Shown: positions 29,952-64,000 of the stretch, one piece after another
Numbering within the stretch: position 1 is the stretch's first letter
Layout: each line of letters starts with the position of its first letter
Notes under the pieces: model-generated
Told to the model about the DNA's origin: nothing
Databases searched by the model: none
Seen by the model: the letters and a program-made list of their open reading frames with translations, nothing else
Assembly: GCA_030068145.1 (NCBI GenBank)
Contig: JAPJBO010000782.1
Coordinates: 43,605-107,604, forward strand
Source: Diplonema papillatum
Lineage: Eukaryota; Euglenozoa; Diplonemea; Diplonemida; Diplonemidae
DNA: 64,000 nt
Direction of reading: 5' to 3'
Position numbers and translations under genes: made by a program

Positions 29952-32900
29952 ATGCTTCGATTAATCGCGGCGCTAACATTGGTGCCTTGGGGGCTGGCTA
30001 CGACTTGTCTGTCCGAGGAGTCACTTGCAGTGTGTTTCACTCTGGGGGATGACTGGCTGCTCAACGCGACGGAGGCTTGCTTTTCTGGCATGACTCCAGA
30101 TCAGGAAAGTGGTGTTGCGGAGACTTCGACAATGTCGCTCAGTCTTCAAACAGGGATTCTGCAAAAAGATATTTACAGTGTGGTTCCCCATTTGGTGGTC
30201 GCCACTTGCGACGGCACTGCGGTTGTCTTCACGCTCCAGACCGCTCTGGTTCCTTCGGAATCCGGGTTGCCCGAATACGTCTCGTCCATCTCTGTAGATG
30301 CCAATTTCAGGCTTACAGATGCACCGTCCTTGGAGTGGCAAGGGGACATTGTAAACGGAATGCTCGACTCGATCTTCGTAGAGTTCGCCTTGCACAAAGA
30401 CGCATACGACACCGATGCCAATCTGGTCGTCGGTCTTATCACACCACCCGCTCTGACGTCCCCTGCTCTGCCCCCGGTGTTGAAGTTCACAGGAGACGCG
30501 ATTGCTCTCCTCACACATGCCGACACGTGCCCGTTCACAAGTCTGGTCCCAGAGACTGTCGGTTACTCCGGTCCTGTTCTTGAGATTGTGGAAGTCGCCA
30601 CGCCGTTCCCTATCCTTCATGCATACTTTGACCCATGCCTTGCACGACGAGTGAGCGATCGGAACTGCACCGAAGATCCAACTGCTTGCACGGCTTTGAA
30701 TAGAGACGTAGTTGTTACACTGTCAGCATCAACAGGTTCTTCGAATGCGACGGCGATGTTTGCTGGGATGGATATCGAAGCCGTGACTGTCAGCCTGCAA
30801 GGAACGTTCATCTGGCAAGGGACGGAGCTCGCAGATACTTCCGGCGCTGGCACGGGCCAGGTAGCGGAGAACGGCATCCGGTGGAATGGGTCGGTTTCGG
30901 CTAATGTAAAGTTGTTCGACGATTTGTATGCTTTCGGGACGGCTCCCTACTCGCCCGATGGTTTCTCGAGCCTCGAGGTTGCAATATCGTACAACACATC
31001 GCTCGCACAAGTACAAGGAACAGCGGTGCTGAGCACTGCTTGTACCGACACGACAACACCGCACAACGTCGGAGACGTCAACGTGGTGCTGAAGGCTTTG
31101 AACGCATCATTTGAGGCGAAGGCGATGCAAACACGGTGCAACGAATGGCAGATAACAGGCGAAGTGCTCGGAAAAAAACTGTCGCTTTTCGGAGTGTCGC
31201 TTCAGTCTTCGTTTGTGAATATGTCGCTGAAGGACGTGAACGAGACACTGTCTCTGAGAGGAAGTGTCGTCGGTGTTGCTGCAATTGACTCGTGGGTGAC
31301 GGCGACCGGAACCATCGCCATTGTCGACGGCGCGGTGGCGTCGTTCGAAGCTATCGGCACTATTGATAACGACATTCTTACGGGGGACATCTCATTTGTA
31401 GTGGATGCTGCGAAGGACGTACTCATCGGTGAAGGTGATCTTTCCTTGTCATTCTCCAATGGCGACATTCCCCAGCTGTCTGCGACTGTTGAACTTGCGA
31501 AGTCGCCGCTGGCCCACCCGCTTTGGACGGTCAAGGGTAGTCTGGCATCGTGGACACTGTATGGCATCGAAGTCAAGGATGTTGAGGTGTACTTGACTGC
31601 ATCCACAGAGATTGTGAATGCCACGTCCGGGTCGGCGAGTTCTCTCCTGTGGAGTGGCGTTGTCTCAGGCAGTCTGATACTGGAAGGGAAAGAAGTTGCA
31701 GTGAACGTAACGGTTGCAGACAATGCGTTTCAGTCGATCGTTGGTGTCCTGCAGGTGGAGGGTCCCCATGTGTTTTTTGATGGGGTATTTGAGCTCGACG
31801 ACATGTCAAAGCACACCGGGTGCGAGGGGCTTGTTTACTCGGCCCACGGAAACCTCGAACTTGCAGGCTACGAATTCGGAGCTGACGTTGTTTCTAATGG
31901 CTGCTCAAACCCGGCCATCGGCGAAGCATTGTTCACGTTTTCTGCTACTGTAGACGGTGGCGCGACGTTGCACTACTCGTCCGTCACACTGACAAAGGCT
32001 GTGGTCGAACTTTACGCTTACGGCGACATCTGCACAGACACGTGCGATGCGACCGATCTGTTGGGCGCGGGAGCTTCGCGAAAAATTAAATCGTGGTCAG
32101 GGGTTCTTTCTGGGAACTCGAACTTGTTCGGTGGAACTTCGACGGCATCTGTGTCCTTTGCGAACGGAGAGCTCAGCGACCTCTATGTGTCGACGTTCTT
32201 CCGCACAGATTCGCAGCTGATCTCGGGGTCCCTTGAGGTTCTGTACTCCTCCGACTGTGCAAAAATGTCGGAGGGAACTGCAGACGTGAAGGTGCGGTTG
32301 CAGAACGCACAGACTCTTAACGTATCGGGAGACATCGGTTATGACACATGCACAGGGCGGCTCGACTTCTCCGGCAAGCTTGTTGGAAAATGGGAATCAC
32401 CGTTTGTAACGGCGAAAGAAGTGACACTGGGATTGTCTCTTCCGGCAGAACCGGCACTGATTTCATCGGGAGTGGGGAAGCGTTTCTGGTACGGGGAGAT
32501 GGTGATCGTGCCAGAAGATGTTCAGCAGGCGAGTCTGACTTTAAAGTTCAATTCGTCTTCGAGTACAAGTGTAGTCGGAGAGCTGGCATACAATCACGAG
32601 AACGTTGTGGTTAACGCCGCACTGCAGTTCAGCAGCGGAGGGGCGTGCGTTGGAGATGGGACAGTCTTCATTGAGAAGCTGCCTTACGGAATTCCGAGCT
32701 TTGAGACCGAGGTCTCGGTGCAGATGAACACGTGCACCGATGAGTCAGCCGGGTGGTCTCTCAGCGGCAAGGTCTCGTCATTCGTGCTGCCTTTCCACTC
32801 CAAAACGATGAACCTCACGTCAGTGAAGATCTCGGTCAGTCGTTTCAGTGCGAACGATACAGTGTATGTCACTGTGACGGGGGCCTACGCGAAGCACTAC

Positions 32901-35276
32901 TACGTGGAAGTTGAGTTCGACACGGCGCCTGGCAGCAGTGTCCGTGTGACCGGTGGCCTTCTTTCAAGCACGCCGTCCGTGAGCTCGTTCTTGACTGCAT
33001 GGACCGGGGGGACACCGGCGCTTCCGGCATCGCTAGGGGCTGGTGCCCCGGAGCTTTATAGCGGTATTAGAGGCTTTGCGTTGAGAACAGTGTTCCTTGA
33101 CTTCTTGTATGACGACCGACAGGTGACACTGGTTGGCTCTGGTGTCTTATACGGACTCGGCTTTGACGCGATTGTTGTCATCAAAAGAGTGTCCGGAGGA
33201 TGGGCATATGGAATCAAGCTGACAACGCAAGACACGGATGCGCCACAGCCCTCCGGCCTGACGCCTTTTCTTGAGAACATTGTGACACAGCTTTCTCCCA
33301 ACCGGCTCATGTTCTCTCTGGCGAGTCCGTTCCTTCAGGATGAAGGACTTGCAGTGGTCTCGAGAGACGGCACAACTGCGCACATCCGAAAGGGTCTCGA
33401 GCTCGAGATGTACCTTGGCTCGAATAGTGAGGTGATGGAGCAAGTTGCAAGCGCGTCACCGGCGGATCTAAAGTTGCAGATTGATGAAGCAAAGGACTCG
33501 GCATCCGGGATCACCGTCATCGCTAAGTTAACATCGAGGACGAAAGCGAACGTGTTTGCGATGCTTCGAGGCAACATGGAACTTGGTACAGACCGGGTGA
33601 AGCTGACGACGTTGGCGTTAAACTTCCGATTCGAGTCGGAGACTGGCAAGCCGCAAATTGGATTCCTTTCGACGGTCTGGTTCAGACTCGGCAGCGTGCC
33701 GTACGAGGAGGAGTTTTCAGCGACAGGGTTCATTCAACTTGACGCTACCGGAAACTTGACGCTTGATTTGTCGGTAACGAGCCCGACGCCCTGGATTGAC
33801 GCGTTCGGAGTAAGCGGTGTGGACGTTCAGTTTCCTCTTGCCGTGCACCTTGGGACGTCTTCATCGATGAAACCTTCGGCGTTTGCGTTGTCCGGTCCGG
33901 CGCTTGTGGGTGGTGCGCAGGGGACGATTGTTCTCAGCGCTAATACGGCTGACTTTGGAGAAACGGCGTTCGCAGCAAAAGTTGATAATGTAAACCTAAA
34001 ACACATCGTGACGGAGCTGACGGGGTGCTCGGACTGCGTGAGAGGCATTGCAGAAACCTTGACTAGCGTTTCCATCAAAAAGGCGACTGTGACAGCCTAC
34101 CACGGATCGTCAGGTTCTACTACCTTCCCCGTCGGCGGAGAGACCACGACAATCCCCGTGGGTGTGGTTGCAAGTGCGCAAATGATCAATCTCTGGAACG
34201 TTATCACTATCGCACGTGCTGATTTCGTGATCACCTCAGCCGGCACGGATGGGTACTTTGAGGCTGCGCCTATCCAGTGGGGTCCGATTCTTATCACATC
34301 GACCCAGAACGCAACTGTGGGTCCTACCGTGGAATTTGCTCTTTCGGGTGCGAACCAAAGTATTGTCGTGGATGGAATGGCAACTATCTGGGGTGTGTCG
34401 GTTTCGGTCGTCCTCGAGTTCACTGACAAGTTGAAACAGGGACATTTCAACTTGGACCTTGGCGGCTTCGCTACCCTCGATGCGGAAATACTGATGGAAG
34501 GGACTCCGGGAAGCGCTGAATTCGCGAATATCATTGATGGGGAACTGAAGGTTGAGCCAGTTGAGCTGGTGAAGGACGCGACACAATGGCTGGTTGACCT
34601 GCAGGAGAAAGCGACGACGGTACACGAGACCGTGAAGACAGGCCTGGACACGGCCAGCGAGGTTCTGTCGACGGCGAATACAATGCTGGATTCGTTGGAA
34701 GCACATTGGCAGAATGTCATGGCGTCGTGGGAGCGCAAGGTTGCGAGTCTGGATGTGAGGATCACGGCTCTGACACTGACCTGCAAAAAGCACGAGGAGA
34801 AGTGCGACGGACCCCCGTTCACGTCTTGTCTGCAGCTCGGTTGGTGCAGGACGAAGCAGTCGCTCATGGGAGCGATGAAAGTCGGTACGACGTCGTTGAT
34901 TGCCGCCCTAAAGGCAATGTCCCGCGTGCCTGTGTCTTTGGCAAGGACAGCAGTCAATGCAGCGCTTGCTGTTGTAGAAACTGCAGAAGACGCCCTTGCA
35001 AAATCTTGGAGCGTGGTTTCCGGCTTCATGCAACTTGCTGAGATTGCTGGCGGAAATCTTACGAACACCCTGGACTTCGAACGCATTGGGTTCACGTCTG
35101 CACTGTCACCAACGGTTTCGGAGGTCACATTCACAGGTGAGGTTAAGATTCTTGGTCGGGAAATTACGTGGGACTTTACTTCGAATCTGACGTACGACGG
35201 CATTACTTCAGCAGTCGCAAATGAAGTCCGTGAATCCCTCCGCACAAGCTGGGGCGGCCTCATTTCCGCTCTCTAG
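29952..35276 (+). CDS. Giant secreted protein, paralogue 2 (intronless)
   Basis: 1774 residues in one exon, same strand as and 10.2 kb downstream of paralogue 1. A hydrophobic N-terminus (about residues 1-17) looks like a signal peptide. The following CLSEESLAVCFTLGDDW block aligns with paralogue 1. Shared landmarks run through the protein: YFDPC, NCTE-P-C, LYGIE, WSG(M/V)L-AN-NLFGGTST, TFFRT-SQLI-GSL, PF(H)SKTM, TSPTPW-like and QWGP-ITS blocks. As in paralogue 1, a helical, coiled-coil-like region with CQ-W-CR cysteines (about 1540-1680) precedes a C-terminal beta segment. There are many N-x-S/T sequons. There is no membrane anchor after the signal peptide, so secretion or wall attachment is likely. 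The family is unrecognised. The overall identity of the pair appears moderate, so the duplication is not recent. Confidence 0.9.
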   Translation: MLRLIAALTLVPWGLATTCLSEESLAVCFTLGDDWLLNATEACFSGMTPDQESGVAETSTMSLSLQTGILQKDIYSVVPHLVVATCDGTAVVFTLQTALVPSESGLPEYVSSISVDANFRLTDAPSLEWQGDIVNGMLDSIFVEFALHKDAYDTDANLVVGLITPPALTSPALPPVLKFTGDAIALLTHADTCPFTSLVPETVGYSGPVLEIVEVATPFPILHAYFDPCLARRVSDRNCTEDPTACTALNRDVVVTLSASTGSSNATAMFAGMDIEAVTVSLQGTFIWQGTELADTSGAGTGQVAENGIRWNGSVSANVKLFDDLYAFGTAPYSPDGFSSLEVAISYNTSLAQVQGTAVLSTACTDTTTPHNVGDVNVVLKALNASFEAKAMQTRCNEWQITGEVLGKKLSLFGVSLQSSFVNMSLKDVNETLSLRGSVVGVAAIDSWVTATGTIAIVDGAVASFEAIGTIDNDILTGDISFVVDAAKDVLIGEGDLSLSFSNGDIPQLSATVELAKSPLAHPLWTVKGSLASWTLYGIEVKDVEVYLTASTEIVNATSGSASSLLWSGVVSGSLILEGKEVAVNVTVADNAFQSIVGVLQVEGPHVFFDGVFELDDMSKHTGCEGLVYSAHGNLELAGYEFGADVVSNGCSNPAIGEALFTFSATVDGGATLHYSSVTLTKAVVELYAYGDICTDTCDATDLLGAGASRKIKSWSGVLSGNSNLFGGTSTASVSFANGELSDLYVSTFFRTDSQLISGSLEVLYSSDCAKMSEGTADVKVRLQNAQTLNVSGDIGYDTCTGRLDFSGKLVGKWESPFVTAKEVTLGLSLPAEPALISSGVGKRFWYGEMVIVPEDVQQASLTLKFNSSSSTSVVGELAYNHENVVVNAALQFSSGGACVGDGTVFIEKLPYGIPSFETEVSVQMNTCTDESAGWSLSGKVSSFVLPFHSKTMNLTSVKISVSRFSANDTVYVTVTGAYAKHYYVEVEFDTAPGSSVRVTGGLLSSTPSVSSFLTAWTGGTPALPASLGAGAPELYSGIRGFALRTVFLDFLYDDRQVTLVGSGVLYGLGFDAIVVIKRVSGGWAYGIKLTTQDTDAPQPSGLTPFLENIVTQLSPNRLMFSLASPFLQDEGLAVVSRDGTTAHIRKGLELEMYLGSNSEVMEQVASASPADLKLQIDEAKDSASGITVIAKLTSRTKANVFAMLRGNMELGTDRVKLTTLALNFRFESETGKPQIGFLSTVWFRLGSVPYEEEFSATGFIQLDATGNLTLDLSVTSPTPWIDAFGVSGVDVQFPLAVHLGTSSSMKPSAFALSGPALVGGAQGTIVLSANTADFGETAFAAKVDNVNLKHIVTELTGCSDCVRGIAETLTSVSIKKATVTAYHGSSGSTTFPVGGETTTIPVGVVASAQMINLWNVITIARADFVITSAGTDGYFEAAPIQWGPILITSTQNATVGPTVEFALSGANQSIVVDGMATIWGVSVSVVLEFTDKLKQGHFNLDLGGFATLDAEILMEGTPGSAEFANIIDGELKVEPVELVKDATQWLVDLQEKATTVHETVKTGLDTASEVLSTANTMLDSLEAHWQNVMASWERKVASLDVRITALTLTCKKHEEKCDGPPFTSCLQLGWCRTKQSLMGAMKVGTTSLIAALKAMSRVPVSLARTAVNAALAVVETAEDALAKSWSVVSGFMQLAEIAGGNLTNTLDFERIGFTSALSPTVSEVTFTGEVKILGREITWDFTSNLTYDGITSAVANEVRESLRTSWGGLISAL

Positions 35277-46015: not shown

Positions 46016-46042
46016 GTCGCGCCTGCATATTTGAGACAAGCC

Positions 46043-48496
46043 ATGCTTTCGTCGAGATCATTACTGAGTGAAGTACCCGTAGTAGCCCTTTTATATGCTC
46101 ACTGTCGCATGTGTCAACTTATACTAACTAAGGGGCGGGGGTCTTCTATACAACGAAGAGCATCCAAAATGGAGTCGTTCTTGCGAGAGCCCGTGCGGCT
46201 TGCTGCGGAGCAACAACGGATCGTGAACGAAATGATTGATGTGTCGATGAAGCACTACCCAGTCTTGATCCAAAGCGTCGAGAGCTGCAGCCAAGTGCTC
46301 AGGGAAGCCGCTGAAGATGTGCAACTGACCGAACGGCTGGCAGCGGAGCAAGAGTCCCTGAAGGAATGTGTGGACATGCTCGCCGAGCGTGGGAAAGAGT
46401 GGAAGAGAGGACGTCAGCAGCTATTGATCCTGCGCAGCAGCCAGGAGCTCATCAGAGACCTTTTCGAGCTTCCCGCGACACTCGAAAACTGCCTCCGGAA
46501 CGAACTGTACCACGAGGCCATCCTCCTGCACGAAAAGGTCGAATCCCTCTTATCTTCTGCGCCCCAGCTCCGTGTCATACAAGCCATCGCAACCGATGTT
46601 GAAGAGACGATGAAGCGGCACATTCCTCTCCTCATCTTCAAGCTCACCACAGCACTTTCTCCCGCGCAATGCGTCAAAATCACCCGTTTCTTGTCTCGCT
46701 TGCGCATCGTCTCCGCACGCGAGCTTCAAAAGGTATTTCTATCCCGCCGTCTCACATACCTGCAGTCCCTATTGAAGGACACTCGCCGGTCTCCCTTCAC
46801 ATACTTAAACCGGGTGTGTAACATCCTTGGCGTCAATCTCCCCGCTGTTATCCAGGAGTATCAAAGCTGTTTTGAGATAAAAGAGGCACGGCTGGCGTTG
46901 CAAGACACAGACTACGATTTGCCGGCGTGCGACGTTCTGGCGGCTTGGCTGGCTGGGGTGGTCAATGAGTTTTTGGACGCGATCAAGAAGACGTTACCGG
47001 TGATATCTTCAGGCGGAGAACTGAAACAGCTAGTCGAGCAAAGCGGGCAGTGTGGCAGGCTTTTAGCCCAAAAGGGATTTGACATCCGGACACTGTTGTA
47101 CGATCTGTTCAGCAAACGAATTTTGAATTTGTGGACCGACGGTATCCATGCTGCATACGATCAATTCAGGCTAGCACTAGGCAACCACGTATGGAGTCTC
47201 CGCCACAACAGCGGTGCAACACGTGAACCGAAGTACGAGCGTACAAGCGGGACCAACATGGCACCCCCGCAAATACTCAGGCAGTATTTGCCCTTGGGCT
47301 ACTTCACCAATGGAATCCTCACGGCGCTGAACGAAGTTCGGCGGTGTGCTTTGACGACATTAACACCCAGGTTTTTATTGTCGTTGACTGAGGTACTTGT
47401 TCAAAGCGTCGCTAACGTGGTCGAAACACACCAGACACAATCGCTCGACGAAAACGAGATGAAAGGCTTCCTTTCCTTTGCGAAGGTGATGACATCCGAC
47501 TTCCTGCCATACATTGGGCGCGCCACAGATACAATGCTCGGACAAGTGCGCGGGCTGAACATTCGGTCCATTAGCAGGCCGCTCCTAGAAATTTGCAATG
47601 CACACACCAAAGCAAAGGAGCCACCATCACAAGAATCGAAGCCCGGAACCAGTATGCCTGCAACAGGTGTTGCCAGCACAAAGGAGTTGGATGGCGGCTC
47701 GCATGAGCATGTCTTCGCTATTGACATGGGTTCTGTCGTGTCCGGAAGCGAGCAGCAGCAGGAACACCAAGACAGACACCAACAACTAGAACAGCAAGAC
47801 CAACAGCGGCAGGACCACCAGCACCACCAGCACCACCAGCACCACCAGCACCACCAGCACCAACATCAACAACAACATAAACAACAGCAACAAGAACAAT
47901 ACCAACAGCAGCAAGACCACCATCACCACCACCCACACCAACAACATCAACACCAACACCATCAACACTATCAACAGCAGGAACACCAACATCAACATCA
48001 ACATCAACACCAACAAGAACACCAATACCGGCAGCAGGACCAGCAACAGCATCAACTCCAACAGCAGCATCAACATCAACGACAACAGTCTCAGCATTAC
48101 ATCCAAGAGCAACAGCAGCATCACCAAGAACACCATCATGAGCATGAAGCGATGCACCGGAACCAGGATCAGAACTACCAGGGTGACATTCAGACGGAAC
48201 AGCAGCAGCCTCAGGATGAGGTGCTACAGCAACAGGAGTCCTGGCAGCAAGGGCAGAGTGCTCCCCAGTACCCTGAACAACAGCAGCATGCAACAACCAG
48301 CACAGACCGAACACGACCACCGTTCATCGCTTCCAACCAGCAATACACTGAGCAGCCAAACGATCCCGCCCAACAGCATGAACTCCCCCCAGACCACGAA
48401 CAGCAGCAGCAGCCAGACCAAGGAAACCAGGCGGTCACACACAATGTCGAATCAGGCTGGGGAGACGACGAATACGACGGCCTGCCGCCGGCATAA
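46043..48496 (+). CDS. COG8: Conserved oligomeric Golgi complex subunit 8 (COG8/Dor1 family) with Gln/His-rich tail
   Basis: COG8 belongs to the eight-subunit COG tether that captures retrograde vesicles at the Golgi. The N-terminal region matches the family well: the REPxRLAxEQ block, the run equivalent to IPxLMDTCxRNxxYxEALxL (here LPATLENCLRNELYHEAILL), then IPLLIFKLTTAL and the YLRR-like CVKITRFLSRLR segment. A small intron is likely: donor A|GTGAAG (46068), TACTAAC branch site (46122-46128), acceptor AG at 46159-46160. Exon 1 would be 46043-46067, giving MLSSRSLLTSKMESFLREP, which aligns with the family N-terminus. Further upstream exons are possible. After about residue 540 comes an unusual tail of over 230 residues, mostly Gln and His (47750-48440), ending in an acidic SGWGDDEYDGLPPA. 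The CAG/CAC/CAA-rich tail is probably a lineage-specific expansion. Confidence 0.85.
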   Translation: MLSSRSLLSEVPVVALLYAHCRMCQLILTKGRGSSIQRRASKMESFLREPVRLAAEQQRIVNEMIDVSMKHYPVLIQSVESCSQVLREAAEDVQLTERLAAEQESLKECVDMLAERGKEWKRGRQQLLILRSSQELIRDLFELPATLENCLRNELYHEAILLHEKVESLLSSAPQLRVIQAIATDVEETMKRHIPLLIFKLTTALSPAQCVKITRFLSRLRIVSARELQKVFLSRRLTYLQSLLKDTRRSPFTYLNRVCNILGVNLPAVIQEYQSCFEIKEARLALQDTDYDLPACDVLAAWLAGVVNEFLDAIKKTLPVISSGGELKQLVEQSGQCGRLLAQKGFDIRTLLYDLFSKRILNLWTDGIHAAYDQFRLALGNHVWSLRHNSGATREPKYERTSGTNMAPPQILRQYLPLGYFTNGILTALNEVRRCALTTLTPRFLLSLTEVLVQSVANVVETHQTQSLDENEMKGFLSFAKVMTSDFLPYIGRATDTMLGQVRGLNIRSISRPLLEICNAHTKAKEPPSQESKPGTSMPATGVASTKELDGGSHEHVFAIDMGSVVSGSEQQQEHQDRHQQLEQQDQQRQDHQHHQHHQHHQHHQHQHQQQHKQQQQEQYQQQQDHHHHHPHQQHQHQHHQHYQQQEHQHQHQHQHQQEHQYRQQDQQQHQLQQQHQHQRQQSQHYIQEQQQHHQEHHHEHEAMHRNQDQNYQGDIQTEQQQPQDEVLQQQESWQQGQSAPQYPEQQQHATTSTDRTRPPFIASNQQYTEQPNDPAQQHELPPDHEQQQQPDQGNQAVTHNVESGWGDDEYDGLPPA

Positions 48497-55781: not shown

Positions 55782-56144
55782 AAACCTGACCTGTGGAATT
55801 GGATGCTGCCAAAAAATGGCTGGTTTGCGGGTCTGGTTCATAGGAAAACCAATAGAAACTGGATTCTGAATTTTGAGTTTTTCAGAATTTTTTTTTGACA
55901 AAGGTGAAATTTTTGCTTGGAATTTTTCATTGTGACGAACAGACAGACAGACAGACAGACAGACGGACAAGCCACATAATTATATAGTAACCTGACCTGT
56001 GGAATTGGATGCTGCCAAAAAATGGCTGGTTTGCGGGTCTGGTTCATAGGAAAACCAATAGAAACTGGATTCTGAATTTTGAGTTTTTCAGAATTTTTTT
56101 TTGACAAAGGTGAAATTTTTGCTTGGAATTTTTCATTGTGACGA

Positions 56145-56175
<31 letters not shown>

Positions 56176-56768
56176 CCAAGCCACATAATTATATAGTAAC
56201 CTGACCTGTGGAATTGGATGCTGCCAAAAAATGGCTGGTTTGCGGGTCTGGTTCATAGGAAAACCAATAGAAACTGGATTCTGAATTTTGAGTTTTTCAG
56301 AATTTTTTTTTGACAAAGGTGAAATTTTTGCTTGGAATTTTTCATTGTGACGAACAGACAGACAGACAGACAGACAGACAAGACAGACGGAATTATATAG
56401 TAAACCTGACCTGTGGAATTGGATGCTGCCAAAAAATGGCTGTTTGCGGGTCTGGTTCATAGGAAAACCAATAGAAACTGGATTCTGAATTTTGAGTTTT
56501 TCAGAATTTTTTTTTGACAAAGGTGAAATTTTTGCTTGGAATTTTTCATTGTGACGAACAGACAGAACAGACGACAGACAGACAGACGACGGACAAGCCA
56601 CATCATTATATAGTAACCTGACCTGTGGAATTGGATGCTGCCAAAAAATGGCTGGTTTGCGGGTCTGGTTCATAGGAAAACCAATAGAAACTGGATTCTG
56701 AATTTTGAGTTTTTCAGAATTTTCTTTTGACAAAGGTGAAATTTTTGCTTGGAATTTTTCATTGTGAC
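55782..56768 (+). repeat. 205-212-bp tandem repeat, five copies, each with a CAGA microsatellite
   Basis: Copies start at 55782, 55989, 56198, 56403 and 56615 with aacctgacctgtggaattgg. Each contains a near-identical 160-bp block, a (gaca)n tract of variable length and acataattatatagt. The fifth copy stops at cattgtgac (56768), exactly where the others enter the CAGA tract; GC-rich retrotransposon sequence begins soon after. Confidence 0.95.
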
Positions 56769-56975
56769 TACAGTTTCTGTACTTTATTGGTGGCTCACCG
56801 TGGTCACCCGCGGACCTCCCTCGGGTTCGTGCGGAAAGCGGTACCGGTCCCCCCGGTGAAAGAAACAACCGCCGCCGACACCCTCTCACCCCGGAGAGGG
56901 CTACACACAACACCCCCCCCAAGCCGCGCCCCGTGCGCGCCCCCTCGCCGGGGAGAAGCGGGCGAAAGCCCACCA

Positions 56976-57200
56976 CCTGCCCCTGAGCCGGGGAAGAGCC
57001 GGTTGACAACGGCTAGTGCCTTCGTTCAGGCACGCGTGAGGCCCACACCCGGCGGAGGGGTGTGCGACGTTCTTCTGCCGCCGGGCGCCCGACCGCGCAC
57101 CCGTGTCACCGCCTGCCCCTGAGCCGGGGAAGAGCCGCGTGACACCGGCTGGCGCCACCGTTCCGGCGCGCGTGAAGGCCCACACCCGGCGGAGGGGTGT
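56976..57200 (+). promoter_or_regulatory. 136-bp tandem 5' UTR monomers of the retrotransposon
   Basis: cctgcccctgagccgggg starts at 56976 and again at 57112. Both units run on through gaagagccg, gacaacggct or gacaccggct, and cacacccggcggaggggtgtg. Tandem 5' monomers act as internal promoters in some LINEs (for example mouse L1); that role here is inference. Confidence 0.6.
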
Positions 57201-57229
57201 GAAAGGATCTGCCGGTCGGAAGGTCGGAG

Positions 57230-58090
57230 GGAGGCGCCGCCGGCTCGCCCGGGGCTGCAGCTGCCCCGGCAGCAGCTGGCCGCAGCCACAGGTAGCAGCA
57301 GCCACGCCGCAGCAGCAACAGCCACAGCAACCGCCTGCCCCAGCACCAACAGCGGCATCTGCCGCAGCAACAGCAGCTCCAGAACCAGCAGCCACAACTG
57401 CAGCAACGGCAAAAGCCCCATCAGCAGCAGCCCCAGGGCCAGCAGCAGCAGCCCCAGCAGCCGCAGCCACAACAGCAGAAGCTGCACCCGCTGCAGCGGC
57501 ACCAGCAGCCGCAGCGACAGCGGCAGCAGCATCGGACACAGCGGCAGCTGCCCCAGAAGCAGCAGCAACACCAGCGGCCGCAGCAACAACAGCGGCAGCA
57601 GCAACGGCGACTGCGGCCGCAGCAACGGCAGCTCCCCGATCGCTGTCGACGGACGCCCCGCGGGCCGGCGCTGCCCACGTGCACCCCCCATCACACCACC
57701 AGTGAGGGGCCTACTGCCGTGGCCGCCCCCAGGCGCCGCCGGCTCGCCCGGGGCTGCAGCTGCCTCGGCAGCAGCGGCCGCAGCCACAACAGCAACAGCA
57801 GCACCAACGACAGCGGCAGCAGCCTCACGGGCAGCAGCAGCGACAGCCCCAACTCCAGCGGCAACAACGGCCCCGACAGCGGCGGCAACACGAGCACCAG
57901 CAGCAGCACCTGCCGCAGCAACAGCAGCCCCAGATCCAGCAGCCACAACAGCAGCAACGGCAAAGGCCCCTACAGCGGCAGCCCCAGCCCCAGCAGCCGC
58001 AGCCACAACAGCAGAAGCAGTAACTGCCTCAACGGCAGCAGCCCCAGCACCCGCAGCAGCGGCACCAGCAGCCGCAGCATCAACGGCAGC
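57230..58090 (+). repeat. GCA-rich low-complexity leader, internally duplicated
   Basis: Two units of about 490 bp (from 57231 and 57728) both begin gcgccgccggctcgcccggg and continue as cagcagcagccccagcagc-type sequence. All forward frames lack ATG codons (frames at 57103 and 57702 begin with GTG), so I treat it as untranslated leader. Confidence 0.6.
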
Positions 58091-58206
58091 TGCTTCTCTT
58101 TTTCCCCCCCGCCCGCACTTGGCCAGCAGTCGTCCGGGATCATACCCCGAGGGCCGGTGTTTTCTTTTTGTTTTTTGTTTTTTCTTTAGTCCTTTCCCCT
58201 CCCACC

Positions 58207-61200
58207 ATGCCCGAGGGACCCATACCCGGGCTCAGCTTCCAGTCGGTCCCTCAGGGCCTTCTGGAGAGGCTCAGCCGGGTACCCGAGCTCGGGCCGAGAG
58301 CCCCGTGGAGGAGGCTGGGGGGCAGGGAGACCCAGCAATGGGGGTTCGCCTTCCGACAGGGCGGACTCCCGCTCAAGCTGGAAGAGGGGATCCCCGAAGG
58401 GCCCCTTAAAGAAATGGCGGATCTCATTCGAGTCCGCCTGGGGTGGGTACCGGACCAGTTGCTGGTCAACCGGTACGGGAGAGGGGTGGGAATCGCCCCC
58501 CACACGGACCAGCGGGCGCTGGGTCCGACGGTCGCGACCGTGTCGCTCTTAAGTGACACGGTCATGGAGTGGGAGAAGGGGGGACGGAAGGTAAGGACCC
58601 CCCTGCCAGTCGGCACCCTGTGCCACATGGAAGGCGAGGCCAGGTGCCTGTGGACGCACGGGATTCGTCCCGCCGACGTCACACAGCCCCGGGTCTCGCT
58701 GACCTACAGGTCGGTGTGCGGGGGGGCCCGATCACTCTCCCACGATCCCCCCCAGCCCTCGGCCGATGCCCCGTCGCACCCCACGGTCGGAGCTCCTCGG
58801 ACGAAACGCCCCACCGACCGGGCTCAAGGTCTCCTGCCAGGCAAGCCGGGGAGAAACGAAGAGGAGGAGCACGACCAGGGAGGTGCGACGGACGCAGAGC
58901 GGGATCAGGGCCGCCCCCCCCAGAGAGAAGAACGGGACCGGGACGCCCCCCCGAGGGCACCCCCAGCATCCCTTGCGCCCCAGCCCCGGGAAGCCCGCCC
59001 GTGGAGGTGGGAGGACGTGTACACACACGTCTTCGAGAGCCCCGCCCAAGGCTGGATTCCCCTCCGAGATTCCAACCGGAGGGGGGTAAGGCTAGTGGGG
59101 CCCAGTCCCCCGCCAGCGCCCCCCGGAAGAGTCCCCCCCCCTCCCCCACCACAGGAGTGGGGGCCGGAGTGGGTCCCAGGGGATGCCCCCCTCGCCCGGG
59201 GCAGGCCGGCACGACTGCCAAAGACGGGGGGCACAAAAGGAGGGGACAGACGCCGGAGCCCGCTCCCCACCTACCCGCCCAAGCCCCGCCCGAAGAAACT
59301 GAGGCCCACCCCTAGCAAAGAAGAAAGGAGGGTAAAAGCGGGGCGCCGACGGGAGGCCCGGGCCAAAAGGAGGGAGGAGGAAGGGCAGCAGCCCCGCAGC
59401 CCCAGCCCGGCCCCCCGAAAGGAGGACGAGGGGGACCCGCCCACCACGAAGGGGAGGTGGTGGGCGAGAAACAAAAGGAGGAGGGAGGGTGGAAGGAGAA
59501 AGACCCGTCCCCACAAGAAGAGACGGGAAGGCCTCCGCAGGCCTGCCCCGCCCGAGGAGGACGAAGAGACCCCGGTCTCGTGCCCGCAAGGCAGGGGCGC
59601 CCCCCCCAGGAGGGCGGGAGGGTGGAAGAAGGGACCCTCCCCTGGTCTAGGCGTGTGGGGGTTAATCGTACTGTGCGGGGCGTTCTGCCTCGGGCAGGCG
59701 ACCCCACGGCCCCAGGGGGTGGTACGCGGCCGGTGGGGGGCACAACCCTCCACCGACGACGGCGAACCCACGCCGACACCGGAGGCCCGGTGCCCAAGGA
59801 CGCCCCGCCCCCCCCGCCCCAGCCCCCGCCCTCGCCCCCCTTCCCGGTCTGACGATGGGGGGGAACAACGCGCCAGGGTTGGAGAGCGGCCACAAGACCG
59901 GCCATCCCCCCCACGACCCCCCCAAGAGAACAGACACACCCCCCGGCCGCCTATGAAGGAGGGAGGGGGCAGGGGGCGAGCGGCCCCGTGGCCCCTCCCC
60001 CCGGAGGGGGGACAAGACCCGGACACCGGCGGAGCACCGGTGTCCGGGGCGTGGTGGGGTGGGGCAGTGCTGATGACGGGCCTGGGGCTCTTGTACGTAG
60101 TCCGCAATGGGTGGAGCAAGGTTCCACGGGCCTTGGCCCGGGGGACCCCGCCAACGACGAAGGTCCCCGAAAGCTCGGGGCCGGGACGACAGGACCCAGG
60201 GACGCACAGCACTGCCCCGGAACCCCGGTACCCGCGCGGCTCCAAGCTGGTGTGGGAAAGGAGGGTGGGCCTTCTCAAAAGCTCCCGCCCAAGTGGCCTA
60301 CACGGTGGGGCGCAGGCCCGGAGTAGTTGTACCCGCAGCCGGTGGGTTTTGCTGTGGGTAGTGCTAGTAGGGGCGGCGGCGGCGTGGGGGGACTCCCACC
60401 TGACGGAACGGCTCCGGGGCAGGAGGGGGGACGGTTTGCCGAACGTAGGGGCCTCAGGACTGGGCCGACCGAGCTCGTCGACTGCAGCCGAGGGGCGGGT
60501 CCCAGGCCGCGAGACCGCTTGGGAGGCGATGCGGGAAGGTGCCCGGCAGGCACGACCAATCCTGGCCCCAGGGGCCCAGTGGACGATGCTCGCTGCGGGG
60601 CTGGGCATGCTCCTGGGGCTGAGGCGACGAAGGCAGCCGGAAGGCGGAACACTCGAGAGGCGGCCGAGGAGGTTGCGGAGGTGGAGGGGTTCACGCCCGG
60701 GCAGACGCCGCCCGGTCTCGGCCTACGAGAGGGAAGAGGCCGCTCGGAGGCAGGAGGCGAGGTACGAGGGGTGGGGCGACCCGCAGGCCGGCCCTCAAGT
60801 GATCTGGCTCGACCCCCACGACCTGAGGGGTGGCGGGGAGCCCGAGGCGACGAAAAAGGCGCAGCAGCAGAAGCGCCCCCCGAGCCGGTCGGCCCCCGGC
60901 AACAACCCCGAGTGCCCAAGCGTGCGGGAAGAGGCGTGCAAAGTCGGAGGCTGCCCCTTCAAAGGCACGCGCGATAAACTCGTGCATCACCTGGCGAGGG
61001 AGCACCAGTTGCCGGGGGGGAAGGACGCCGTGCCGGCGGCGGATCTAGCCAGGCTAAAGATGGGCCTGTGCCACCACTGCGGAGCTGTGGAGGACCGGAA
61101 GTGCGCCAGCAATGCCCATGTGAGCTGCAGGCAGAAAGCCGAGTCGACCAGGGACCACCCGCACGAAGAGCCGGAAGGGTGCTGGGAATACGCGGCGGCG

Positions 61201-64000
61201 ATCGACCGCACCAGGATCCTAAGGGAAGCGGGGGCGACGGCTCTCTCCACAAGCGGGGAGGGCGGAAACTGTGGCTACAGGGCGCTCCTGCACGCGATGG
61301 ACCCCTCCGCGGACGACGTGGGGCAGCTCAGGAGGGAGTTAGCCCGCCACATAGCGACGAGGTCGGACTACTATAAAGGGGTCCTGGGCTCGGAGAAAGC
61401 AGTGCGGGAATACGTCCAGGAGATGGGGTCGGGCTCGAAGTGGATGGACCACCTCGCTCTCCAGGCAGCGGCCGACATGCGCGGGGCGTGCATCATCGTG
61501 GTGAAGGGAGGGAGGAACCCGGTCATCAGGATAGGGGAGGACACGCGGGACGAGAGGAGGATCCTCGTGGTGGCTTTCGGTAACGGGCACTACGAGAAGG
61601 TCTCCTACAAGGACCTGAAAAAGGAGAAGGCCGAGGGAAGTGCGAAAGAGATCCTCTGGAAGAGGTCGGCCAAGGCGAAGATGGTCAACGTAGATGAAAG
61701 CCCCGCGCACGCGGGGACAATCGAGGGGACCCTCGGTGTCCGCGACGCCCGGTGGTTGGCTTGCCCAGACCTGAAGCAGGGGTGCTACTCCCTGCACGGG
61801 ATTCGGCAGGGAGCGGCCTTCTTTTGCCCACTGCTCGGGTGCGAGAGGTCCATGAGGGCGGCGGGCGGGCGGATGGGACCGAAGTTCAGCAGCTTCGGGG
61901 CTTTAAAGGCGCACTTAGATGTCCACAACAGGGAGGACAAGATCAACCCTAACGTACTGTCGCAGCTGGGGCTGAGGGAGTGCGTGGTGTGCGGGGACAT
62001 GGTCAAGATCGAGAAGATGGCACACGCAGCGTGCGCCAAGAAGCTGAAGGGAGGGGACAACCCGGGGGTGACGAGCATCCCTCACGCGGACAGGAGTACG
62101 CTCCCAGGGTGGGGGGAAGTGGCACACCTGCGGCTCCAGACCCGCAACTCCGTTCCGAGGCCGCTCCACCGGTTGTGGGCGGAGACTTTAACGCGGACCT
62201 TGAAACTGGTCAACGAGGAAAAGAGCGAGGCCTCGGCGCTCTTGCTGTACATGCTGCCGAAGACGTGCCTGGGGAGGGACAGGGGGGGCCGGAAGGCCCA
62301 TAACAAGAACATCACCCTGACGAGAGACAGGCTGGTGGCCTGGGGCGAAGGCAGCTACAGCCGGCTGTGGGAAGACGCCAAGGCCGGGGCCGCCGCGGCC
62401 GGCGGGAAAGACAGGGCAAGATTGGACGAGGAGGAGGGGAAGCTGGCCAGAGCCACAACGCTGACCAAGATGGGGAGATTCTCTATGGGCAACGCGGCAC
62501 TGGTAGCAGAGGGCCTAGCCGAGGACAACAACACCACCTGGGAAGCTCTCCTTTCCAAACACCCGAAGGCAGCCGAACACCGGCGACAGGAGGGGCCGGC
62601 AGGGCTGGAGGCCGGGGATCCGCTCTCGGTGCCTGAGGACGCAGTGCTCAGCGCGATAAAAGAGTTTCCGAGAGGCTCGGGGGCCGGCCCGTCCTCCCTC
62701 AGGGCGCAGTTCCTCAAGGACGCGGCGGGAGCGCCAGACAATCCGGGGGTTGTGGCAGAGATGACGTCCTTTGTCAACCTGCTGCTGGCGGGCAAGGTCC
62801 CGGTCGAGGCGAGGCCGTACCTGGCCGGAGCCACACTGATAGCCCTCAGGAAGAAAGACAAGCCCGGGGACGTCCGGCCGATCGCAGTGGGAGAGGTGTG
62901 GCGGCGCCTGACGGCCAAGTGCGCGTGCGCCAAAGTTAAGGACCAGGCCAGGGAGGTGCTGATGGAGGGCAATCAGGTGGGGGTAGCGGTGCCGGGAGGA
63001 GCGGAAGCGGCAGTACAGGTGGTACGGGAGTACGCCCGCCGGATGAGCAGGGTGAAGGGGAAGGCCATGCTGAAGGTGGATTTGCGGAACGCCTTCAACT
63101 GCGTGCACAGGGAGGCGTTCCTGAGGGAAGTGGAGGACCGCTTGCCAGAGATCTGGCCCTGGGTGAAGTGGTGCTACGGAGGGAGCTCCAAGCTGTTCAC
63201 CAAAGGGAGGGAGATCTCCTCAGAGGAAGGGGCGCAACAGGGGGACCCTCTCGGCCCCCTTCTGTTCTCCCTCGCCATAGCCCCCATCATCAAGCAGATT
63301 AAGGCAGAGACAGGAGTCGACCTGAGTCTTTTCTATTTAGACGACGGGTTTTTTGCAGGAGACAGCGAGTGCGTCCTCAAGGCGTTCAAAAAGTTTGAGC
63401 GAGCGTGCTTGAAAATAGGCCTGAAAGTGGCCAGGGACAAGTGCGAGTGGATCATGCTGGACGAGAGCCTGAGCAGGGACCCGCAGGACTGGGGGTTCCC
63501 GAAGGACACGAAAATGAGGAAAGGGGACGCCTTCGACTTCCTGGGGGCCCCGATCGGGTCCGACCAACACTGCGCGGCGTTCCTGGGGAAGAAGGTGGAG
63601 GAGCTGAAGGCGACTTTCCGGATGCTCCGAAAGATGGAGGACAAGCAGGCGGCCTACTGCCTCCTGAGAGCGTGCGACTCCTTCGGGAAAATGGTATACT
63701 ACATGCGGGCCGTACCAGGGACAGGGGTCCGCAAGACTTTCCGGAAGTTCGACGCCCTTGTCAAAGACGCGATGGAGGACATCTGCGAGCTGGGGTTCTC
63801 GGACAGGTCATGGAAGCAGGCCAAACTGGCGATCAGGCTCGGAGGACTAGGGCTCAGGAGCACAGAGGAGCACCACGTGTCCGCCAGCATCGCAGCCCTA
63901 GCGGGCAGGAGGGGCCTGGCACGCACGCTGGACCCGGCTTACGAGATCAACGGAGCGCAGTGGGGGGAGGCCGCGGCGGAGTTCAATAGGTCGATTCCCC
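58207..64000 (+). CDS. Retrotransposon polyprotein: AlkB dioxygenase - linker - zinc fingers - OTU protease - zinc fingers - reverse transcriptase (3' end beyond window)
   Basis: I translated this frame codon by codon: no stop from the ATG at 58207 (context cccaccATGC, first ATG after the TAA at 58021) to the window edge, 1931 codons. Residues 80-170 are AlkB-like: NRYGRGVGIAPHTDQ gives Fe ligands H99 and D101, H151 (WTHGI) is the third, and RVSLTYR (R162, R168) is the 2-oxoglutarate motif with family spacing. Residues 176-900 are Pro/Arg/Gly-rich with hydrophobic segments near 483-498, 619-632, 712-728 and 790-805. Zinc module 1: C911-x4-C916-x11-H928-x4-H933 and C955-x2-C958-x12-H971-x2-C974. 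OTU protease: GGNCGYRALLHAM with C1022, and NGHYEKVSY with H1128. Zinc module 2: C1207, C1212, H1236, H1240 and C1259, C1262, H1273, C1276. RT: motif A VDLRNAF (D1625), motif B GAQQGDPLGPLLFSL (1675 on), motif C YLDD (1710-1713). The catalytic residues are intact, so it may be active or recently so. Confidence 0.85.
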   Translation, partial: MPEGPIPGLSFQSVPQGLLERLSRVPELGPRAPWRRLGGRETQQWGFAFRQGGLPLKLEEGIPEGPLKEMADLIRVRLGWVPDQLLVNRYGRGVGIAPHTDQRALGPTVATVSLLSDTVMEWEKGGRKVRTPLPVGTLCHMEGEARCLWTHGIRPADVTQPRVSLTYRSVCGGARSLSHDPPQPSADAPSHPTVGAPRTKRPTDRAQGLLPGKPGRNEEEEHDQGGATDAERDQGRPPQREERDRDAPPRAPPASLAPQPREARPWRWEDVYTHVFESPAQGWIPLRDSNRRGVRLVGPSPPPAPPGRVPPPPPPQEWGPEWVPGDAPLARGRPARLPKTGGTKGGDRRRSPLPTYPPKPRPKKLRPTPSKEERRVKAGRRREARAKRREEEGQQPRSPSPAPRKEDEGDPPTTKGRWWARNKRRREGGRRKTRPHKKRREGLRRPAPPEEDEETPVSCPQGRGAPPRRAGGWKKGPSPGLGVWGLIVLCGAFCLGQATPRPQGVVRGRWGAQPSTDDGEPTPTPEARCPRTPRPPRPSPRPRPPSRSDDGGEQRARVGERPQDRPSPPRPPQENRHTPRPPMKEGGGRGRAAPWPLPPEGGQDPDTGGAPVSGAWWGGAVLMTGLGLLYVVRNGWSKVPRALARGTPPTTKVPESSGPGRQDPGTHSTAPEPRYPRGSKLVWERRVGLLKSSRPSGLHGGAQARSSCTRSRWVLLWVVLVGAAAAWGDSHLTERLRGRRGDGLPNVGASGLGRPSSSTAAEGRVPGRETAWEAMREGARQARPILAPGAQWTMLAAGLGMLLGLRRRRQPEGGTLERRPRRLRRWRGSRPGRRRPVSAYEREEAARRQEARYEGWGDPQAGPQVIWLDPHDLRGGGEPEATKKAQQQKRPPSRSAPGNNPECPSVREEACKVGGCPFKGTRDKLVHHLAREHQLPGGKDAVPAADLARLKMGLCHHCGAVEDRKCASNAHVSCRQKAESTRDHPHEEPEGCWEYAAAIDRTRILREAGATALSTSGEGGNCGYRALLHAMDPSADDVGQLRRELARHIATRSDYYKGVLGSEKAVREYVQEMGSGSKWMDHLALQAAADMRGACIIVVKGGRNPVIRIGEDTRDERRILVVAFGNGHYEKVSYKDLKKEKAEGSAKEILWKRSAKAKMVNVDESPAHAGTIEGTLGVRDARWLACPDLKQGCYSLHGIRQGAAFFCPLLGCERSMRAAGGRMGPKFSSFGALKAHLDVHNREDKINPNVLSQLGLRECVVCGDMVKIEKMAHAACAKKLKGGDNPGVTSIPHADRSTLPGWGEVAHLRLQTRNSVPRPLHRLWAETLTRTLKLVNEEKSEASALLLYMLPKTCLGRDRGGRKAHNKNITLTRDRLVAWGEGSYSRLWEDAKAGAAAAGGKDRARLDEEEGKLARATTLTKMGRFSMGNAALVAEGLAEDNNTTWEALLSKHPKAAEHRRQEGPAGLEAGDPLSVPEDAVLSAIKEFPRGSGAGPSSLRAQFLKDAAGAPDNPGVVAEMTSFVNLLLAGKVPVEARPYLAGATLIALRKKDKPGDVRPIAVGEVWRRLTAKCACAKVKDQAREVLMEGNQVGVAVPGGAEAAVQVVREYARRMSRVKGKAMLKVDLRNAFNCVHREAFLREVEDRLPEIWPWVKWCYGGSSKLFTKGREISSEEGAQQGDPLGPLLFSLAIAPIIKQIKAETGVDLSLFYLDDGFFAGDSECVLKAFKKFERACLKIGLKVARDKCEWIMLDESLSRDPQDWGFPKDTKMRKGDAFDFLGAPIGSDQHCAAFLGKKVEELKATFRMLRKMEDKQAAYCLLRACDSFGKMVYYMRAVPGTGVRKTFRKFDALVKDAMEDICELGFSDRSWKQAKLAIRLGGLGLRSTEEHHVSASIAALAGRRGLARTLDPAYEINGAQWGEAAAEFNRSIP

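Follow-up and report, generated by a model that had tools for sequence, protein, structure and literature searches.

AlkB domains at the head of LINEs and Helitrons in Diplonema papillatum: a putative counter-defence module shared between transposon classes

The accessory domains of published transposons that we encountered are captures within one element class. Among the long interspersed nuclear elements (LINEs) with a restriction-like endonuclease (RLE-type, R2 and CRE groups: R2, NeSL, Utopia and SLACS/CZAR/CRE), NeSL and Utopia are described with Ulp1-like proteases (PMC4640811). Helitrons and Helentrons are reported to carry accessory proteins such as OTU-like proteases (PMC4067079), and a Ty3/Gypsy element of Phalaenopsis holds an ALKBH5-like open reading frame (ORF) that keeps the cofactor residues and whose product demethylates RNA in vitro; the same report places AlkB in Alpha- and Betaflexiviridae (PMC9289625). 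Here we describe a LINE at the end of contig JAPJBO010000782.1 of Diplonema papillatum, a marine single-celled flagellate (Euglenozoa), from a stretch of 64,000 nucleotides (the window). Its predicted polyprotein combines an AlkB dioxygenase, an OTU protease and a reverse transcriptase, and related AlkBs head LINEs of another type and Helitrons. AlkB in a transposon is already known, and the sharing across classes is the surprising part: a single enzymatic module, joined to different bodies, occurs within one genome both in retrotransposons and in rolling-circle DNA transposons.

The element resembles RLE-type LINEs in a reverse transcriptase that is nearest R2 among solved structures, in zinc-finger-like motifs, in poly(A) and in a CX2CX10HX3C motif with PGD...D beyond the reverse transcriptase, and one D. 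papillatum relative is named 'SLACS 132 kDa' by its source. Unlike them, it has AlkB, a USP domain and a size of 3745 amino acids. Plant flexiviruses also have OTU-like domains, and the pairing of AlkB with an OTU-like domain in one replication polyprotein is common to them and the element; they are, however, RNA viruses with an RNA polymerase, and the likeness holds at the level of domain families. A sequence-only reading of the window had drawn this viral analogy, which proved apt and is strengthened by the USP, a second deubiquitinase-type domain. The Phalaenopsis element likewise carries AlkB, but it is a long terminal repeat element with a separate, ALKBH5-like ORF in one lineage, whereas here one AlkB group extends across LINEs and Helitrons. 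The Helitrons C166 and C1735 described below have Rep and PIF1, as do Helitrons and Helentrons with OTU, SET or RPA proteins. Trypanosomatid LINEs (INGI/L1Tc, SLACS) come from the same phylum; INGI, CRE, VIPER and TATE are reported from 57 trypanosomatid genomes in a survey whose main text lacks the words AlkB, OTU and protease (PMC12278014). Our literature searches, short on subscription journals and mostly confined to titles and abstracts, returned no AlkB in a LINE or Helitron and no module crossing classes.

A LINE polyprotein with AlkB, OTU, reverse transcriptase and USP domains

The window element is the 5′ half of a D. papillatum non-LTR retrotransposon predicted to encode one very large polyprotein. 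The sequence-only reading had proposed a LINE-type element uniting AlkB, OTU and reverse transcriptase in one uninterrupted frame of at least 1931 codons. Such a frame does run without a stop from the ATG at 58207 to the window end; its 1931 codons are open at the 3′ end, where the contig terminus (window base 64000) truncates the ORF. The following features were mapped along it:

58207..64000, + strand: polyprotein ORF, truncated at the contig terminus (copy C233: 3745 codons)
58207..58731, + strand: AlkB domain, residues 1-175 (Pfam, alignments, ratio of nonsynonymous to synonymous substitution, dN/dS)
59233..59571, + strand: basic tail with GRWWARNKRRR, residues 343-455, aligning with Helitron C166
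59579..59581, + strand: module joint, beyond which the window and C703 copies diverge
59638..59694, + strand: hydrophobic segment, residues 478-496 (Kyte-Doolittle mean 1.71 over 19 residues)
60937..61005, + strand: zinc-finger-like motif of CX4CX12HX4H type preceding OTU, read by eye; no Pfam match in the window protein
61261..61611, + strand: OTU domain, residues 1019-1135, with C1022 and H1128 (Pfam 26.5 bits)
61825..61926, + strand: second zinc-finger-like motif, read by eye; the equivalent part of P0004 has a weak C2H2 match below cut-off
62848..63549, + strand: reverse transcriptase, residues 1548-1781, with GAQQGDP and YLDD (Pfam 3.4e-20; R2 the nearest solved structure)

Hidden Markov model searches of the window protein with Pfam placed all three domains above their cut-offs: 2OG-FeII_Oxy_2 at residues 78-168 (44.4 bits against 31.2, 2.8e-11), OTU at residues 1020-1104 (26.5 bits against 23.3, 1e-5) and RVT_1 at residues 1548-1781 (73.1 bits, 3.4e-20). 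The catalytic residues lie where the sequence-only reading had put them. An alignment with 13 outside AlkBs shows no variation at H99, D101 and H151 and almost none at R162 and R168, which gives the predicted dioxygenase its HxD...H ligands and two 2-oxoglutarate arginines; C1022 and H1128 of the putative OTU protease stand within GGNCGYRA and GNGHYEK, and this domain also exceeds the Pfam cut-off in copy C233, with 25.9 bits. Among solved structures the window reverse transcriptase is nearest R2 (4.1e-8), with L1 ORF2 at just 0.6. NCBIfam returned a weak AlkB match on the element and a group II intron reverse transcriptase match far under its cut-off. In coding scores over 300-nt bins from 58300, the frame ranked top of the three forward frames in 19/19 bins and of all six in 17/19, the bins from about 61207 onward overlapping the training set.

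The complete element was found in the C233 copy, which differs from the window at 5 of 5794 nt (3 of them synonymous) and continues the same frame unbroken through 3745 codons to a stop, so that a sequencing error joining two frames is excluded. The order in this copy is AlkB, basic tail, hydrophobic segment, zinc finger, OTU, zinc finger, reverse transcriptase, endonuclease-like motif and USP. Past the window end, a CX2CX10HX3C motif is followed by PGD...D; both are present in C233 and C703, in a segment that has no Pfam match and lies beyond the end of the PDB alignment to R2. The predicted USP of C233 scores 30.2 bits against a cut-off of 23.9 (4.3e-7), with the boxes NSCYLQAALN and HTGENNAGHY, and the same USP is carried by P0003, which overlaps the window over 510 residues at 99.8%. 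Between the endonuclease-like motif and the USP, residues 2552-2757 of C233 contain three TPAxxKPxTAGG motifs, which may be repeats or cleavage sites.

A second family, on contig C703, has the same domain order in a frame of at least 3838 codons. Its body (body B) has a USP at 9.5e-8 and an OTU at 20.3 bits, below cut-off. The other copies (C233, C703) confirm a LINE in which AlkB and OTU are parts of one uninterrupted polyprotein. Checked by HMM searches, by comparison of copies and for a frame error, the sequence-only reading of the element was not refuted.

Related AlkB domains across transposon classes

The cross-class sharing of AlkB, the USP domain and the spliced-leader 5′ ends described below go beyond the sequence-only reading. 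The genome searches were made in a 271 Mb assembly; the D. papillatum genome is described as about 280 Mb with about 2500 transposon gene models (PMC10161547). On contig C17, a 1992-codon frame consists of AlkB (2.5e-12), the 2A motif GDIEQNPGP, an APE endonuclease (3.1e-9) and a reverse transcriptase (5.9e-19) whose nearest solved structure is L1 ORF2 (2.3e-19). The same AlkB-2A-APE-RT order recurs in C4, C817 and C64, with frames of 2002, 2046 and 2007 codons. All four are APE-type LINEs, with PF03372 at 1.3e-10 to 1.9e-8 and RVT_1 in 4/4; the combination of APE endonuclease and 2A motif in a LINE is like that of L1Tc. A further LINE family, represented by C1760 (L082:88-6003), has a 1972-codon frame of OTU-APE-RT-RNase H with no AlkB match; its N-terminal OTU matches that of the window (E 9e-7), and the 1972-codon length recurs many times among the OTU (PF02338) matches listed.

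Related AlkBs also head Helitrons, with Rep and a PIF1-type helicase at about 1e-37 and 1e-41 in both C166 and C1735. The 2986 codons of C166 contain AlkB (1.2e-16), Helitron_like_N (7.3e-38), PIF1 (7.7e-42) and USP (3.6e-14); C1735 has AlkB, Helitron_like_N and PIF1 in 3188 codons of a fetched stretch with an open end that stops short of the C-terminus. Between the window and C166, residues 7-462 of the former can be aligned at 33% identity (E 4e-47), a span that takes in the GRWWxxNKRRR motif; after the tail, the window, C703, C166 and C1735 all have a hydrophobic segment. By alignment, AlkB of the window LINE and of Helitron C166 lies within a longer related unit with basic tail and hydrophobic segment, and both elements add a predicted USP near the C-terminus.

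Among the AlkBs tabulated, the one in C641 is 86% identical to that of the window; three APE-type elements follow with 76-80%, an unassigned repeat has 48% and two Helitrons have 45-49%, against 27-33% for four other AlkBs of the genome and 33-35% for two outside sequences. A tree of 38 AlkB cores separates the 14 AlkBs assigned to transposons from 11 other genome loci and 13 outside sequences by a branch of moderate support (86/96; 85% of 200 bootstraps). We assigned the label 'host' to the 11 loci ourselves, and two of them, C232 and C169, fall within frames of 1484 and 1427 codons; equally ours is the label 'TEx', given to three repeat loci of which one sits beside a PIF1 fragment. Four rows are labelled 'Helitron', of which C479 and C797 were assigned through AlkB likeness only. 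The AlkB profile fitted 17 of 19 fetched AlkB-match loci; L053 (the best PF13532 match) and L060 did not fit and were left out, and L070, an APE-type LINE fragment, was excluded from the tree. The further AlkB version in L066, L067 and L065 (C1931, C948, C32) is 48% identical to that of the window, and in C1931 it adjoins a PIF1 helicase fragment, possibly from a decayed Helitron. The closest named proteins, among 8000 candidates scored, are from D. papillatum. In protein searches aimed at other hosts, long proteins gave 3 matches, all from D. papillatum, and short ones gave 13 matches from outside collections (8000 candidates scored), and viral contigs scanned with the AlkB alignment held no relative.

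AlkB belongs to the element, being multicopy, under purifying selection as estimated from dN/dS, and conserved in its predicted catalytic residues. With the AlkB DNA as query, the best 40 of 256 candidates were scored, with identities of 100 to 82%, and 28 of the 30 loci examined among them retain both HxD and LWTHGI in frame. The exceptions are L026, in which an internal deletion removed HxD, and L032, which a contig end truncates. Nei-Gojobori (NG86) dN/dS ratios, crude at this GC content, were 0.22-0.31 for the window AlkB against C641, C17, C4, C817 and C64, with a synonymous excess at p 4e-8 to 3e-6; the nearly identical pair C817 and C64 has no significant excess (p 0.17), and comparisons between LINE and Helitron AlkBs are saturated at synonymous sites.

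The module has also moved. The window and C703 are alike at 99.4 and 99.3% of residues over AlkB and tail (segments counted) and at only 35-64% downstream. Conversely, C641 and C703 are alike at 99.96% of 5292 nt of body, and C641 carries another AlkB version, with 86% of residues shared with the window and 49% in the tail. Near-identical AlkBs on divergent bodies, together with a different AlkB on a near-identical body, indicate from sequence comparison that versions and bodies have been recombined. The joints are located at one point of the C703-type body, and the same joint between the window's AlkB version (v1) and body B is present in 6/6 loci examined (C703, L013, L014, L016, L018, L020), of which L014 and L020 have differing 5′ flanks. 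As to splicing as a possible cause, the joint at 59580 could be read as a GT donor, but neither the joint at 59854 (L019) nor the deletions in L026 and L033 fit it; template switching is another candidate cause. It is highly improbable, and already disfavoured, that AlkB is a passenger caught by chance or that the joints are assembly chimeras of no use to the element: transposons often capture host exons and many contigs break inside these elements, yet the joint recurs between differing flanks, AlkB is under purifying selection, and related AlkBs head three transposon types.

For the best 150 of 250 PF13532 candidates, the surrounding frame has at least 1000 codons in 108 cases and 1980-2050 codons in 64; the window AlkB (44.4 bits) falls below the last match scored (47.9) and hence outside the 150. 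All ten of the long-frame (at least 1000 codons) AlkB elements examined in part or whole are transposons, although a long frame alone is no proof, since the AlkBs of C232 and C169 are outside the transposon group. For PF02338, many of the best 150 of 656 candidates are in frames of 1544-2130 codons. These counts bear on annotation, as the genome paper takes a dozen AlkB homologues as host regulation (PMC10161547), against the 108 of 150 matches in long frames. These transposons have been absorbed into D. papillatum gene models: a source calls P0002 a tRNA (carboxymethyluridine(34)-5-O)-methyltransferase, in P0006 AlkB is joined to an endonuclease-motif part and the N-terminus is unrelated, and P0010 ends in an APE-type AlkB fragment.

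Spliced-leader 5′ ends and the template RNA

The 5′ end of the window element was delimited by three features:

55783..56768, + strand: satellite array of 209-bp units (4.7 copies by Tandem Repeats Finder), flanking the element on its 5′ side
56769..56789, + strand: spliced-leader exon remnant at the element 5′ end (exact match, 0 expected)
56790..58206, + strand: element 5′ untranslated region (UTR), common to other copies; junction sequence at 14 places

The remnant is the last 21-22 nt of the exon AACCAACGATTTAAAAGCTACAGTTTCTGTACTTTATTG (Euglenozoa 14), which we take to be the Diplonema spliced leader; the C at 56768 is compatible with both satellite and leader. Under the same designation, the exon is given in PMC3795323. 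The leader 3′ end is joined to the element 5′ UTR at 14 places in the genome, against 0 for the pattern control. With two more at other acceptors, 16 junctions were examined, each with all or part of the leader exon: three begin at leader nucleotide 1, four at nucleotide 2, one each at nucleotides 3 and 4, and seven further in. Remnants too short for the junction pattern also exist, such as the 12 nt at C6 (L020), a copy at which no target-site duplication was seen by eye. A genome search for the leader attached to the acceptor-like site immediately upstream of the ATG gave 0 places. The bases after the leader are GT in the main type, as the spliced-leader intron would start, and GA and AA in two other types.

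At the other end, poly(A) of 21, 50 and 138 nt was found at three 3′ ends (L042, L044, L045) among five 3′ stretches scanned. The scanned stretches of L040 and L041 have no poly(A), and whether they reach the 3′ end was not checked; the contig of C233 opens within a GA repeat, short of any tail. The leader exon at 16 junctions and the poly(A) at three 3′ ends identify the template of retrotransposition, as read from the copies, as a trans-spliced, polyadenylated mRNA, and the leader-headed copies are a genomic record of it. Essentially all D. papillatum mRNAs are reported to bear the leader (PMC10161547). Pr77-driven trypanosomatid transcripts, in contrast, are described as unspliced (PMC8190864).

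Reverse transcriptase (RVT_1, 3.4e-20), poly(A) and 5′ ends at varying points all mark the element as a LINE. A fixed site in spliced-leader RNA genes, as in CRE/SLACS, was not found at the 16 junctions, whose flanks differ except for C845 and C468, which lie in the same repeat. Because of these differing flanks, and because the leader stops at the beginning of the 5′ UTR, insertion into spliced-leader genes in the manner of SLACS was rejected.

The C2428 copy (L042) continues after its poly(A) of 50 into GACGAACAGACAGACAG, which resembles the satellite 5′ of the window element (55783-56768). Some other 5′ flanks also look repetitive, and the element may favour repeats of this kind. Many of the window-type copies are found close to contig ends with the 3′ end outward, probably through assembly breaks in a 12-13 kb repeat; a telomeric position is a possible alternative.

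Predicted function of the AlkB module

We hypothesize that AlkB is an accessory module exchanged between transposon classes that would oxidatively remove a methyl mark placed by the host on transposon RNA or DNA, and that OTU and USP would counter ubiquitination by stripping ubiquitin from element proteins, would cut the polyprotein, or both. On balance, the sequence evidence makes this reading somewhat probable. The sharing with Helitrons points to a factor that every transposon of this host would meet, for instance an RNA or DNA mark, and away from a peculiarity of reverse transcription; a module of advantage to any class in this host would explain why unrelated elements share it. To the proposal that one AlkB lineage is common to the host's R2-like LINEs, APE-type LINEs and Helitrons as a counter-defence kit against methyl marking, we would give slightly less than an even chance. 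If elements that move differently have converged on one kit, D. papillatum would methyl-mark its mobile DNA or the RNA made from it. Should AlkB remove such a host mark, its substrate would name the defence, and the module would be the transposon counterpart of AlkB and OTU in plant RNA viruses.

Several observations weigh against host-mark removal by a single shared lineage. Branch support for that lineage is only moderate, and the selection estimates are crude. The OTU of body B copies scores 20.3-21.7 bits, under the Pfam cut-off of 23.3, and the four AlkB-bearing APE-type LINEs (C17, C4, C817, C64) have no OTU or USP match. The USPs of LINE and Helitron are not detectably alike (BLAST, E 0.075), and were thus probably gained separately. 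Finally, ALKBH8, whose AlkB domain hydroxylates a tRNA wobble base, is the nearest solved AlkB, so that by this analogy the substrate may differ from a methyl mark. The window AlkB matches ALKBH8 at 5e-8 and ALKBH6 at 3e-7, a profile built from three AlkB versions has ALKBH8 nearest at 3.2e-12, and ALKBH2, ALKBH3 and E. coli AlkB score below ALKBH8 and ALKBH6 against that profile.

Repair of the element's own RNA or cDNA had been suggested by the sequence-only reading. As the whole story it is weakened, because Helitrons, which move without reverse transcription, bear related AlkBs. A broader form, in which AlkB would reverse alkylation (1-methyladenosine, 3-methylcytosine) in the element's RNA or single-stranded DNA with no host mark involved, accommodates Helitrons too, as LINEs and Helitrons both pass through RNA or single-stranded DNA. 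This is the classical AlkB role and has been postulated for the AlkB of plant viruses (PMC9289625). It nevertheless offers no reason why the transposons of this one host should need AlkB, and with ALKBH8 and ALKBH6 outscoring the three AlkBs named above among solved relatives, we consider it unlikely.

The same ranking, and the name given to P0002, could suggest an ALKBH8-like role, in which the AlkB would modify tRNA or another host RNA and so bias translation towards the element. We find this doubtful, more so than repair: Pfam detected no methyltransferase or RNA-recognition domain beside AlkB in the window protein and its relatives, and the transposon AlkBs are separated in the tree from the remaining AlkBs of the genome, among which no ALKBH8 was identified.

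The junctions raise another alternative, in which the LINE AlkB strips base methyls from the cap-proximal leader and so lets reverse transcription reach the mRNA 5′ end. Nine of the 16 junctions begin within leader nucleotides 1-4, four of these precisely at nucleotide 2, and trypanosome cap-4 is described with N6,N6,2′-O-trimethyladenosine (m6,6Am) at nucleotide 1 and 3,2′-O-dimethyluridine (m3Um) at nucleotide 4 (PMC7004131). Here, however, leader nucleotide 4 is C, not the U of m3Um, and Helitrons carry related AlkB, which makes this explanation very improbable.

Elsewhere in the window, two long open frames at 10725-15056 and 29952-35276 (1443 and 1774 amino acids) have no Pfam match, and positions 46031-48496 encode a Dor1-like protein (PF04124, 6e-40), probably an ordinary host gene.

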